A stretch of DNA of 39,515 nucleotides, taken from assembly GCA_005792635.1 (NCBI GenBank), contig SXRF01000109.1, positions 1 through 39,515 on the forward strand, read 5' to 3'. Both the position numbers and the translations under genes were made by a program. Positions 14,603 through 17,145 of the stretch are shown here, piece by piece; position 1 is the first letter of the stretch; each line of letters opens with the position of its first letter. This DNA comes from Rickettsiales bacterium (GTDB taxonomy: Bacteria; Pseudomonadota; Alphaproteobacteria; Rickettsiales; SXRF01). Under the pieces are notes generated by a model. The model was not told the DNA's origin and ran no database searches. It saw nothing but the letters and a program-made list of their open reading frames with translations.

Positions 14603-14614
14603 TCTAATTATGCC

Positions 14615-14986
14615 TTATTTAGATGGCAATCGCCATTTTCCGTTATGATCAGCATTCTCTATAATACCTTTATTTTTCATCCTATGAAGTTGGGCACGAA
14701 AAGTATTTTCATTTAGGTAAAAACTTACTTCTTTTGCTTGTTTATAAAGGGTATTGGTACTGATACTAGTTCTTACCTCCAAAGCAGAAAGAACTCTTTT
14801 TTCAATCATAATTCGGTTAATACTGTTTTTTCTGCTAACATCTCTAATATCTGTGTTGTCACGCCGCGCAATTATAAGTTGTCGCTCTAAAGCTACTTTA
14901 TCCCTGTTCAATTCTTTGATTTCATTATTTATTTTTTCAATAGCAGAATATATATAATCTTCAAAAGCCGTTCTTTGTTCTGACAT
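14615..14986 (-). CDS. Coiled-coil/winged-helix protein, possible regulator of the Abi locus
   Basis: A 123-residue protein. The N-terminal half is a charged coiled coil (about residues 15-55, AIEKINNEIKELNRDKVALE and on); the C-terminal half resembles a winged helix: EKRVLSALEVRTSISTNTLY, FRAQLHRMKNKGIIEN, then a short strand NGKWRLPSK. I do not recognise a named family. ATG at 14986 with GAAAG about 10 nt upstream; the frame is open 9 codons further. The gene is AT-rich and divergent from the two RNA-like units and the Abi_2 gene, with the 46-nt palindrome between. This suggests, but does not show, that it regulates that locus. Confidence 0.7.
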   Translation of the reverse strand: MSEQRTAFEDYIYSAIEKINNEIKELNRDKVALERQLIIARRDNTDIRDVSRKNSINRIMIEKRVLSALEVRTSISTNTLYKQAKEVSFYLNENTFRAQLHRMKNKGIIENADHNGKWRLPSK

Positions 14987-15082
14987 ATAGTTACACTTTC
15001 TTTTTTGAAACAAAAATGTTATTTATATATATAAAATTATTTATATCTTTCAATACATTTTTCATATTGACTTTTTTAGCAA

Positions 15083-15128
15083 AATATGTTAGTAACAAAG
15101 TTAATTTTAACTTTGTTACTAACATATT
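15083..15128. promoter_or_regulatory. Perfect 46-nt palindrome, likely operator
   Basis: Two 22-nt arms, AATATGTTAGTAACAAAGTT(AA) and its exact complement, are separated by TT. A possible promoter overlaps it: TTGACT at 15067-15072, 17 nt, then TAGTAA at 15090-15095, reading toward the RNA-like units. There is no T-run, so a terminator is unlikely. The half-site TTTGTTACTAACATA recurs at 21102-21116. Confidence 0.7.
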
Positions 15129-15136
15129 CAAAATGT

Positions 15137-15240
15137 TGCGATTTTTTATTTGTTGCAGTTCATGCAAATAAGTGAGACTATGTTTATTGACATGGCTAGC
15201 CCCTCTTCACCTCGGTGTACGGGCTAGCCCTCTTTTTTTT
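15137..15240 (+). ncRNA. Candidate structured RNA, unit 1 (Abi_2-associated)
   Basis: The unit starts TGCGATTTTTTATT and ends in a two-part hairpin: an outer stem GGCTAGCCC/GGGCTAGCC (9 bp), an internal loop (CTCTT on one side, TAC on the other), and an inner CAC/GTG stem. T8 follows, so it can serve as a terminator. A second copy lies 177 nt downstream, and an Abi_2 gene follows that. No open frame is present. An abiF RNA motif is known upstream of Abi_2 genes; this is a candidate member. Confidence 0.6.
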
Positions 15241-15313
15241 AAGACTACCTCACATACTGATGTGCGTTGGATCTAATTCTTAAGCATCAACTTGTATAGT
15301 ATATTCATACTGC

Positions 15314-15409
15314 TGCATTTTTTATTGCAATCATTATGTAGAAATGCGACTACTTAGCCTGACACGCCTAGCCCCTCTTCACCGTACGGTGTACGGGCTA
15401 GCCTTCTTT
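15314..15409 (+). ncRNA. Candidate structured RNA, unit 2 (Abi_2-associated)
   Basis: A diverged copy of unit 1: the same TGCATTTTTTATT start, a shared GCGACTA/GAGACTA element in the middle, and the same hairpin. CTAGCCCCTCTTCACC and GGTGTACGGGCTAGCC are identical in both copies, but here the inner stem is CACC-GTAC-GGTG, two bases longer. One outer pair is lost (CC mismatch). The T-run is broken (TTCTTTATTA), so transcription may run on into the Abi_2 gene 18 nt away. Confidence 0.6.
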
Positions 15410-15426
15410 ATTATGCGGATTTTATC

Positions 15427-16368
15427 GTGACAATTTATTCAAAACCATACCTCACTCCTAAGCAGCAGGTTTCGCTTCTGAGGTCTAGAGGAATGATAAT
15501 CACCGATGTTGAAAAAGCCAAATCCTGCTTGCAACGAGTGGGATATTATCGCTTAAGTGCCTATTGGTATCCATTTAGAGAATCTGAACAAGATGAAGGT
15601 GGAAAGGTTATTGTTAATGATGATTTTAAAACAGGAATAAATTTTCAAACAGTTTTTGAATTATATGTGTTTGATAAAGGCTTGAGAATGATTATTCTTG
15701 ACGCTCTGGAACGCATAGAAATCGCCTTGCGAACAGATATTGCGCTTTTGCTTGGTAAACATGACATAAGAGCACATAGAAATCCTGATTTGCTACATGG
15801 TCATTTTTCCAAAAAAAATCAAAAAGGAAAAAATACAACCCTTCATGCGGAGTGGTTGTCGCGCTTAGATGATAAATTCAAAAAATCCAGAGAGGATTTT
15901 GTTGCTCATTTTAAGCGTAAATATTCTGGCGATCATTTACCAATCTGGATGGCAACCGAACTTTTTGATTTTGGTTTATTATCCTTTTTATATGACGGTC
16001 TAAAGCATAAAGACAAAGACGAAATTGCGGAAAATTACGGAATACCATCAGGTGAGATGCTTGCCTCATGGCTCAGATGTTTAGGAGATGTCAGAAATAT
16101 CTGCGCTCACCATTCTCGTTTATGGAATCGCACCCTAGTAAACCAGCCATCATTACCGAAGGCCGATGAAATTAAAGGATTTAATTATATAGGCAACAAT
16201 ACTCGTTTATATGCAGGCTTAGTAATTATAAAATTTCTACTAAAGACTGTAAATCCATCTACAACATGGTGGGCTCGGCTAGTCCAGCATATTGATACCT
16301 TCCCAACCGACCAATATATCAGCCTAAAAAATGCTGGATTTCCTGAAAATTGGGAAAACTGCAATTAA
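15427..16368 (+). CDS. Abi_2 family protein (AbiD/AbiF), HEPN-type abortive-infection protein
   Basis: A 313-residue protein of the Abi_2 family, which includes the lactococcal abortive-infection proteins AbiD and AbiF. Family landmarks: YSKPYLTPKQQVSLLRSRGM at the start, VGYYRLSAYWYPF (about 38-50), FDKGLRMIILDALERIEIAL (about 85-104), PIWMATELFDFGLLS and the HEPN-type R-x4-H motif RNICAHHSR at about 222-230, a predicted RNase active site. The start is GTG at 15427 without a clear ribosome site, which would keep expression low. Gene is AT-rich, unlike cimA before and trmJ after it. The TrmJ-like gene follows at 9 nt. Known Abi proteins stop phage by killing or arresting the host; whether the RNA units act as antitoxin is inference. 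Confidence 0.88.
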   Translation: MTIYSKPYLTPKQQVSLLRSRGMIITDVEKAKSCLQRVGYYRLSAYWYPFRESEQDEGGKVIVNDDFKTGINFQTVFELYVFDKGLRMIILDALERIEIALRTDIALLLGKHDIRAHRNPDLLHGHFSKKNQKGKNTTLHAEWLSRLDDKFKKSREDFVAHFKRKYSGDHLPIWMATELFDFGLLSFLYDGLKHKDKDEIAENYGIPSGEMLASWLRCLGDVRNICAHHSRLWNRTLVNQPSLPKADEIKGFNYIGNNTRLYAGLVIIKFLLKTVNPSTTWWARLVQHIDTFPTDQYISLKNAGFPENWENCN

Positions 16369-16377
16369 GGTTATATT

Positions 16378-17145
16378 ATGAAATCTATAATCACCGCCCC
16401 CATCATCATCCTAATCCGCCCGCAAATGGGCGAGAATATCGGTGCGGTGGCACGCGCGATGAGCAATTTTGGTTTGAGCGAGCTGCGGCTCGTTGCACCG
16501 CGCGATGGCTGGCCAAACCAAAGGGCTAACGACATGGCGGCGGGCGGTCTTAATATTATTGAAAATGCCAAAATTTACCCAGATTTTGCGAGCGCAATGG
16601 TCGATATTCACTGCGCCTATGCCACCACAGCCCGCTCGCGCGATATGAACAAGCGCACTACCTCACCAAGCGAGGCAATGGCAGAAATTCTTGCCAACAA
16701 CCAACAACAAGCAACTAATAACCGCACTGCAATTGTCTTCGGCGCGGAGCGCACGGGAATGGAAAATGAGGATGTTGTGCTGTGTGATGCGATTATAAAT
16801 ATTCCCACTTCAGCGGAAAATCCGTCCCTAAATCTTGGGCAGGCGGCGGTGATTATTGGGTATGAATGGGCGAAAGCGAGTATTGAGTTTGGAGTGTTGA
16901 GTGTGGAAAAAAATACTAGGCTACACTCCACACTCCAAACTCCAAACTCTGCGCCGAAAGGCGAATATCTTGGTCTATTTGAACAGCTAGAAAACTACCT
17001 AGACCAAGCCGAATATTTCCGCACCGAGCAGAAAAAAGCCATAATGTGGAAAAACCTGCGCACTATGTTGCTGCGCGGAGCGTGGAACGAACAAGAAATC
17101 CGCACTATGCGTGGCATGCTTCGTGCGCTGTGGGAACGCAAATAA
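16378..17145 (+). CDS. trmJ: TrmJ-type SPOUT RNA methyltransferase
   Basis: TrmJ 2'-O-methylates position 32 of tRNAs. Seen: IIILIRPQMGENIGAVARAM at the start (canonical LV.p...GNiGa.aRam), FGLSELRLVAPRDGWPN, the SPOUT knot motifs VFGAERTGMENEDVVLCD and IPTSAENPSLNLGQAA, and the C-terminal helix region of the TrmJ group. A stretch of about 24 residues at 168-191 (FGVLSVEKNTRLHSTLQTPN) is encoded by a palindromic 7-nt-word element inserted in frame between the catalytic and C-terminal parts. AAGG stands 7-8 nt before the ATG. 255 residues. Confidence 0.88.
   Translation: MKSIITAPIIILIRPQMGENIGAVARAMSNFGLSELRLVAPRDGWPNQRANDMAAGGLNIIENAKIYPDFASAMVDIHCAYATTARSRDMNKRTTSPSEAMAEILANNQQQATNNRTAIVFGAERTGMENEDVVLCDAIINIPTSAENPSLNLGQAAVIIGYEWAKASIEFGVLSVEKNTRLHSTLQTPNSAPKGEYLGLFEQLENYLDQAEYFRTEQKKAIMWKNLRTMLLRGAWNEQEIRTMRGMLRALWERK
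16878..16950. repeat. Palindromic element of 7-nt words, in frame inside trmJ
   Basis: The left arm is four 7-nt words: GAGTATT, GAGTTTG, GAGTGTT, GAGTGTG. The right arm is ACACTCC, ACACTCC, AAACTCC, AAACTCT, near-complement of the left. A loop of about 17 nt lies between. The length keeps the trmJ frame open, as with Rickettsia palindromic elements inside genes. Confidence 0.85.

Follow-up and report, generated by a model that had tools for sequence, protein, structure and literature searches.

AbiF has been proposed as an ancestor of Cas13, and the systems closest to the locus described here pair an AbiF-type protein with a small structured RNA. That locus lies in a 39,515-nucleotide (nt) contig of a Rickettsiales bacterium (GCA_005792635.1, SXRF01000109.1), the whole of which we call the window, and consists of two tandem hairpin RNA units followed by a gene for an Abi_2 protein with a HEPN ribonuclease motif.

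An RNA antitoxin has been demonstrated experimentally for AbiF of C. difficile, and binding and inhibition of the toxin by RNA have been shown for a relative (PMC12373285, here and below as given in the portion of that article consulted). The RCd22-AbiF pair of the C. difficile phage phi027 resembles the window in having an RNA with two motifs before an Abi_2/AbiF toxin gene, an own SigA promoter, and a terminator with read-through into the toxin gene; the RNA also attenuates that gene, and Abi_2 genes often have further Abi_2 copies as neighbors (PMC12373285). It differs in that both abiF motifs belong to the Rfam family RF03085 and lie within one RNA, whereas the window has two separate elements, each with a promoter-like sequence and a U-rich tail, that RF03085 does not detect. 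A second relative, PbAbiF-AbiFr (PDB 8vz6), shares the fold of the window protein over nearly its full length, and two bases of its RNA, C32 and U38, which lie in a bulge without pairing, are reported to inhibit the nuclease (PMC12737573, in the part consulted).

RF03085 itself is a hairpin of ~37 nt beside Abi_2 genes. It is built from an outer stem, an internal loop A/CAAAUC, and an inner stem of 3 bp, whereas the window class has a single continuous basal stem, a CUCUK/UAC loop, and an apical stem. More distantly, type III toxin–antitoxin (TA) systems such as ToxIN place a repeated RNA antitoxin gene and a terminator before the toxin gene (partly general background, partly the consulted portion of PMC12373285). 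The window likewise has structured, repeated RNA units with a terminator-like tail before a toxin gene, but ToxN has its own fold, whereas the toxin here is a HEPN protein and the RNA gene of one clade is convergent at the 3′ end of the toxin gene.

We put the probability at roughly 0.8 that the window units are a pair of antitoxin RNAs acting in trans, from a divergent class akin to abiF, and that the island holding them is a type III-like TA (abortive infection) module of the AbiF/AbiD kind. The hairpin RNAs very probably keep the toxin switched off. Judged by its sequence, the RNA belongs to a divergent, AbiF-type class of antitoxin and is present here in two copies; how it would act is taken from close relatives. 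This reading draws on covariation, association with Abi_2 in 78 of 79 loci, a clade with convergent 3′ RNA genes, promoter position, the PbAbiF fold match, and the RNA antitoxin of C. difficile.

The window locus and its RNA family

A sequence-only reading of this DNA had proposed two hairpin copies before an Abi_2/HEPN gene, and both are present (Table 1), the second ending 16 nt before the GTG start of that gene. It had placed the copies 177 nt apart and given each unit about 100 nt; the 5′ arm sites yield 172 nt, and the conserved part is an element of 45–47 nt plus a promoter-like stretch of identical spacing. Both inner loops do still pair, as had been claimed (CACC/GGUG apical pairing), but they differ by a 2-nt insertion (UC vs. 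GUAC). The 5′ arm CTAGCCCCTCTTCACC occurs at exactly two sites in the 1.95-Mb genome, 15196 and 15368 (exact search; 5′ arm only), and the covariance model R1 finds the two window units plus one 13-bit place (E 6.6). Copies away from Abi_2, which would have spoken against the proposal, did not turn up in this genome: the arm and the R1 elements occur only beside this gene.

A repeat search pairs 15213–15238 with 15387–15412 at 92%. The short hairpins of unit 1 (15195–15240) and unit 2 (15366–15415) fold with z-scores of -5.4 and -3.4, with 0 of 200 shuffles as good in either case, and a longer stretch of unit 1 gives -4.9.

Table 1. Features of the window locus, with the virus records that carry the hairpin alone
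Feature	Position	Strand	Description
RNA unit 1	15192..15236	+	Hairpin with internal loop CUCUU/UAC, followed by T8; R1 61.2 bits, E 2.2e-15 (R1 seed member)
RNA unit 2	15364..15410	+	Same hairpin class, U-rich tail; R1 57.7 bits, E 2.5e-14 (R1 seed member)
Promoter-like sequence, unit 1	15153..15181	+	-35 TTGCAG, 17 nt, -10 GACTAT, 10 nt to element; weak consensus match
Promoter-like sequence, unit 2	15325..15353	+	-35 TTGCAA, 17 nt, -10 GACTAC, 10 nt to element; degenerate
Abi_2 / AbiF-AbiD HEPN ribonuclease, probable toxin	15427..16368	+	313 amino acids, GTG start, RNICAHH
Inserted island	14603..16377		Between HMGL/LeuA-type synthase gene and SpoU methylase gene
Divergent small protein, likely DNA-binding regulator	14615..15013	-	132 amino acids; long helix and C-terminal winged helix
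Palindrome, probable operator of the divergent regulator	15083..15128		Perfect 22-nt arms, 2 nt apart
Virus records with orphan RNA	L209-L213, L215-L220, L222-L237, L240-L255, L257, L258		Several beside phage genes

The GTG-started gene with its RNICAH motif is indeed an Abi_2 gene (Pfam Abi_2, E 7.5e-58; 196.3 bits against a gathering cut-off of 25.6), and its product also matches PADLOC AbiD (E 3.9e-76). R223, N224, and H228 of the HEPN RNxxxH motif are invariant in 12 and in 19 aligned proteins. A phmmer search of PDB returned 8vz6_A, the PbAbiF dimer in complex with its non-coding RNA (ncRNA), as the sole sequence match at E up to 1 (E 2e-42). The predicted fold of the toxin (predicted local distance difference test [pLDDT] 91.4) likewise has 8vz6_A as its sole match under 0.001, with template-modeling (TM) scores of 0.79/0.83 and E 2.3e-16. 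Between unit 2 and the toxin gene, positions 15413–15430 (+) hold a 5-codon ATG frame whose TGA overlaps the toxin GTG, and translational coupling could result.

The T8 terminator-like tail seen after unit 1 is real, and its T run is the longest among 30 upstream units of the family. The tail of unit 2 had been called a “broken” terminator, a description that does not hold: its longest T run is 3, and runs of 3 or less occur in 16 of those 30 units. In L111, which also has two upstream units, it is once more the distal copy whose T run is longer (5 vs. 3).

Promoter-like sites were scored in the 60 nt upstream of each element with a matrix of approximate E. coli frequencies. Across 91 elements (weak matches and some near-copies were removed by hand), the best sigma-70-like site ends its -10 hexamer 8–11 nt before the element in 76, against ~10 expected from mononucleotide shuffles, and the site of window unit 1 lies at this family-typical position. 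A plain sigma-70 consensus scan gave no site before either window unit. The duplicated unit thus seems, from its sequence, to include a promoter, which in unit 2 is perhaps degraded.

Beyond the window, many Abi_2 loci carry a hairpin with the same architecture upstream of the gene: a ~9-bp basal stem, a 5′ loop CUCU(G/U), a variable apical stem-loop, a 3′ loop UAC (or CAC), a closing stem, and a U-rich tail. The CUCU(G/U)/UAC internal loop is nearly fixed across the family. We aligned 21 hairpins, 20 chosen by a script requiring the core and at least 6 pairs and one (L004) added by hand, leaving out copies in L012 and L115 and chance matches at other distances. In this alignment (A2), 9 of the 13 pairs change on both sides, with 36 such cells against 8.3 in shuffles, and the covariation score was reached by 0 of 500 shuffles; the selection did not build covariation in. 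A wider set of 38 hairpins has 90 two-sided changed cells against 27.3 in shuffles, although the number of pairs with two-sided change is less clear there, being reached by 44 of 500 shuffles. Shifting the partners by one base leaves 42–49% of cells paired in the two sets. That a structured RNA accompanies this AbiF-type HEPN system is therefore borne out by covariation in homologous loci. A second hairpin class with a different loop (R3) behaves similarly, with 44 two-sided cells against 14.3 in 27 hairpins.

A scan of the genome_contigs set with the single protein found no relatives, and an alignment query was used instead. The best 80 Abi_2 loci among those scanned (L034–L113) were chosen on protein similarity alone; L039, which duplicates L030, was excluded. 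An R1, R2, or R3 match lies beside Abi_2 in 78 of the 79 loci searched, a descriptive figure rather than an independent test since many of these loci are seeds of the models. R1 or R2 matches 44 of them (L095 by R1 alone, at 27.5 bits) and R3 matches 36.

Over 289 genomes of the class (best 21 candidates per genome scored, hence not a full count), R1 exceeds 57 bits at four places in three genomes, namely the window pair, G287, and G431; all are beside Abi_2 and all are seed members, and no further strong place came up. R2, run on 32 whole genomes, yielded 40 matches at E up to 1e-4, of which 34 fall at the starting loci. Among the six extra places, L294 and L296 hold full-length Abi_2 genes and L293 an Abi_2 fragment.

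Duplicated RNA units had been thought unusual. They are uncommon, occurring in 4 of the best 79 loci, but the window is not unique: L111 has two upstream units, L104 two downstream, and L051 and L096 one of each class. In the last two, the RNAs stand in tandem 3′ of a single Abi_2 gene (L051:2597-2759; L096:2984-3157, minus strand).

The position of the RNA gene varies with the lineage. In the alphaproteobacterial and several other loci it lies upstream on the sense strand; most gamma- and betaproteobacterial loci, and some from Verrucomicrobiota and Myxococcota, have it 3′ of the toxin gene on the opposite strand. Of 60 such loci, 55 were measured (all except L072, L074, L109, L117, and L118); in 54 of them, the end of the RNA falls within a range from 16 nt upstream to 31 nt downstream of the stop codon (median +7), and in L105, the toxin frame runs through the element. 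The R3 class of gamma- and betaproteobacteria (L050–L075 and others, e.g., L054:3001-3055 on the minus strand) is of this convergent kind, with a T-run tail and its own promoter-like sequence.

A tree was built from 129 Abi_2 proteins by a quick method, after removal of two fragments, L074 and L109; it has several long branches. In it, one 59-row clade with a Shimodaira-Hasegawa-like approximate likelihood ratio test (SH-aLRT) support of 97 takes in all 58 rows labeled as downstream plus L119, which has no RNA match. RNA class and orientation change 14 times on the tree, against 71.9 with shuffled labels; the label “other” takes in a few viral loci with weak upstream R1 matches. The simplest reading of these sequences is one relocation of the RNA gene.

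Proposed antitoxin action and its alternatives

As we picture it, two tandem small RNA genes would be transcribed from their own promoter-like sequences into hairpin RNAs of roughly 50 nt. If the PbAbiF-ncRNA structure and the findings on RCd22-AbiF are a guide, the RNA would bind the AbiF homodimer and block its HEPN ribonuclease. Unit 1, with its strong terminator, would be a dedicated source of antitoxin, and unit 2 would combine an antitoxin with a leaky terminator through which some transcription enters the toxin gene; a division of labor between the two fits. Should the supply of RNA stop, for example on takeover by a phage, the toxin would be freed and would cleave RNA. The divergent winged-helix protein and the palindrome probably set the level of transcription.

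Several observations weigh against this reading. The sequence-only reading had pointed to the Rfam abiF motif, but RF03085 was not found in 15000–15500 at E up to 10, nor in the rest of the genome (its 14 control genomes gave no match either). No score of 37 bits or more was obtained, and the outer stem and the asymmetric A/CAAAUC loop are absent; adjacency to Abi_2 is present, and the window element is a simpler hairpin class. The likeness that we see between the two families, a CCUCU in the loop region of RF03085, was judged by eye. Among 29 loci scanned with RF03085 (15 at the gathering score and 15 at E up to 0.05, L032 being in both groups), L019 and L032 score above the cut-off and L008, L016, and L018 below it; L032, from phiC2, is detected at 37.6 bits against the threshold of 37.

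Other points concern the hairpins themselves. The longer stretch of unit 2 (15310–15418) folds with a z-score of only -1.7, with 7 of 200 shuffles as good; the 95.9% of paired cells in alignment A2 is partly a matter of construction, as the script demanded a stem. Both window promoters have poor hexamers, and a different site within the 60 nt upstream of unit 2 outscores the one in Table 1. L076 is the sole one of the best 79 loci to lack an R1–R3 match, and so do many more distant viral Abi_2 loci. Of the six extra R2 places, three have no Abi_2 within 4 kb: L295, which has a good hairpin at 42.6 bits, and L297 and L298, at 30–32 bits.

Among the alternatives, the one that survives best, although we think it unlikely, is that unit 1 is what remains of another RNA-toxin module whose toxin was lost, and that unit 2 alone serves the present gene. 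The frequent presence of further Abi_2 copies near Abi_2 genes (PMC12373285, as above) would supply such modules, and L051 and L096, with RNAs of two different classes, look the part. At L293 (2013-2161), an intact hairpin RNA adjoins a 31-amino-acid Abi_2 fragment, and the RNA seems to outlive its toxin. The window units, however, have identical arms even though stems vary from one locus to another, a sign that the duplication took place within the locus, and by eye no toxin remnant lies between them.

More doubtful still is the proposal that the hairpins are ordinary intrinsic terminators, or a leader attenuator of the toxin gene, with no trans-acting RNA at all. They are stable hairpins with U-rich tails directly before a gene, the C. 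difficile RNA attenuates its toxin gene too (PMC12373285, as above), and the weak R1 matches elsewhere (five at 28–32 bits, in 3-kb stretches without Abi_2) resemble ordinary terminators. A terminator has no need, however, of a fixed CUCU(G/U)/UAC internal loop, and a promoter-like site stands at a fixed distance before most elements. A search pattern with a permuted loop matches 2 virus records, whereas the real loop matches 30. In 58 rows of the tree, the RNA gene is located 3′ of the toxin gene on the opposite strand, and this convergent arrangement within one clade argues for action in trans rather than as a mere leader. A pure leader or read-through role, which the sequence-only reading had entertained for one of the units, is accordingly unlikely for the family. 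That the RNAs are CRISPR RNA-like guides directing the HEPN protein to targets is very improbable, given that there are two repeat units only, that nothing resembling a variable spacer is seen in homologous loci (the hairpin makes up nearly all of the predicted RNA), and that variation between loci largely covaries as stem pairs, unlike a CRISPR-Cas13 array.

If the window RNAs are trans-acting antitoxins, as we favor, the RNA-antitoxin side of AbiF extends to toxins whose RNAs the Rfam model misses, as at this locus. The RNA gene can be 3′ and convergent, which itself argues for action in trans, and a simple motif suffices to find RNA-toxin pairs: the two new full Abi_2 loci, L294 and L296, were found in this way.

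Virus records without Abi_2

The most surprising lead is the virus records. IMG/VR was searched with exact patterns of the hairpin classes, giving 49 distinct records (12, 15, 2, and 20 new), with an Abi_2 domain in 2 of 29 and 0 of 20 of them. L239 and L256 have stems of only 4 bp and were removed. AbiF-type hairpin RNAs with no Abi_2 detected are thus present in 45 virus records, amounting to 31 distinct elements in 24 context clusters (Table 1). Records may be fragments, and the absence of Abi_2 holds for the record only. A partial 16-mer match in another record (L221, viral_contigs) has no hairpin and was set aside.

The R1 scores of the virus elements range from 27 to 67 bits, the lowest (L258, L249, L231, and L224) being at or near genome-wide noise. 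Two records have a tandem pair: L237 carries an R2 element of 42 bits plus a C1-type hairpin, and so mixes classes, and L227 has a second, weaker copy (28 bits with R2). When 29 distinct orphan elements were aligned, without the truncated L257 and the divergent L237, 93.4% of cells were paired and 45 changed on both sides against 14.3 in shuffles, with the stem partly fixed by the search patterns; column pair 7–51 shows four pair types. Outward from the pattern in 25 distinct real-loop matches, the next five positions are paired in 103 of 125 cases; shuffles give 87.7, and 97 at most. The two records found with the permuted loop are identical at the site and have 1 of 5 extra pairs.

Proteins flanking the orphan elements matched PHROGs in 14 of 20 cases (terminases, PhoH, a ribonucleotide reductase subunit, primase/helicase, and tail spike), the other 6 having no match. 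In DNA similarity searches, the orphan-bearing L220, L247, and L211 gave no match, L230 and L215 gave partial matches to neighboring genes, and L231 gave none with a query stretch outside the element.

It is conceivable, at somewhat short of even odds, that these stand-alone phage RNAs are decoys holding the AbiF of the host inhibited when host transcription stops. Two observations speak against it: the element lies inside a mechanically called open reading frame (ORF) of at least 60 amino acids in 13 of 30 records (more than 400 in L210 and L242), and the best promoter stands at 8–11 nt in 17 of 49 virus elements and at 0–3 nt in 20, nine of which are one sequence. The orphan RNAs may also be remnants of lost modules, or terminators descended from such remnants. 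The cyanophage S-CREM1 provides a described case of an abiF-type RNA in a lytic phage; it belongs to the RF03085 class, and the portion of PMC9964418 consulted gives no decoy-antitoxin interpretation. In the literature searched, in which subscription titles were thinly covered, we recognized neither an account of AbiF-RNA decoys in phages nor one of a convergent AbiF RNA. Were the decoy proposal true, the orphan RNAs would be an RNA-based anti-defense against a Cas13-related toxin family, revealed by the hairpin class of the window, and whether phages disarm AbiF defense by orphan copies is now directly testable.

The island and other features of the window

The AT-rich nature of the island had been remarked on and is confirmed, with 35% GC against 52% and 50% in the flanking genes. 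In two members of the same genus, G001 (L199) and G003 (L200), the HMGL/LeuA-type synthase and SpoU genes are adjacent and the island is absent; in a third, G002, the SpoU side alone was observed. Among 174 relative genomes, 6 (the window's own genome counted) have Abi_2 relatives at E up to 1e-15, and none of the 3 other same-genus and 12 same-family genomes listed has one. This distribution, together with the adjacent flanking genes in sister species, fits a recent acquisition of the island. A 7-bp repeat, ATGAAAT, stands on both sides of it, probably by chance.

The divergent small protein is read from a TTG, although an ATG at 14986 is possible too. It has no Pfam or NCBIfam match and a weak PADLOC AbiEi match (E 9.4e-6), and its model (pLDDT 87.8) gave weak Foldseek matches, many of them winged helices (best E 9.6e-3). 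A search for the winged-helix protein matched three plasmids, none of the viral_contigs, and none of 90 relatives beyond its own genome. Homologues are 42–46% identical and lie beside Abi_2 in L026, L027, and L042; another, in the Phaeobacter plasmid L201, is divergent from an NYN-domain gene, with no Abi_2 annotated in 5.3 kb. Long palindromes occurred only in the window, L026, L027, and L042 among 26 loci scanned, and one was read by eye in L201; all five have a common TRGYAACA / TGTTRCTA core. From these sequences, it is plausible that the winged-helix protein and the palindrome form a portable repressor-operator unit lent to different RNase genes. Low-scoring Rfam matches on the palindrome and AT-rich DNA (miRNA, lncRNA, thermoregulator) were taken as chance.

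Elsewhere in the window, an inverted repeat at 16878–16949, with 27-nt arms that are 89% complementary, lies within the SpoU methylase gene, and a bacterial RNase P class A RNA occupies 85–439 on the plus strand (144.4 bits).
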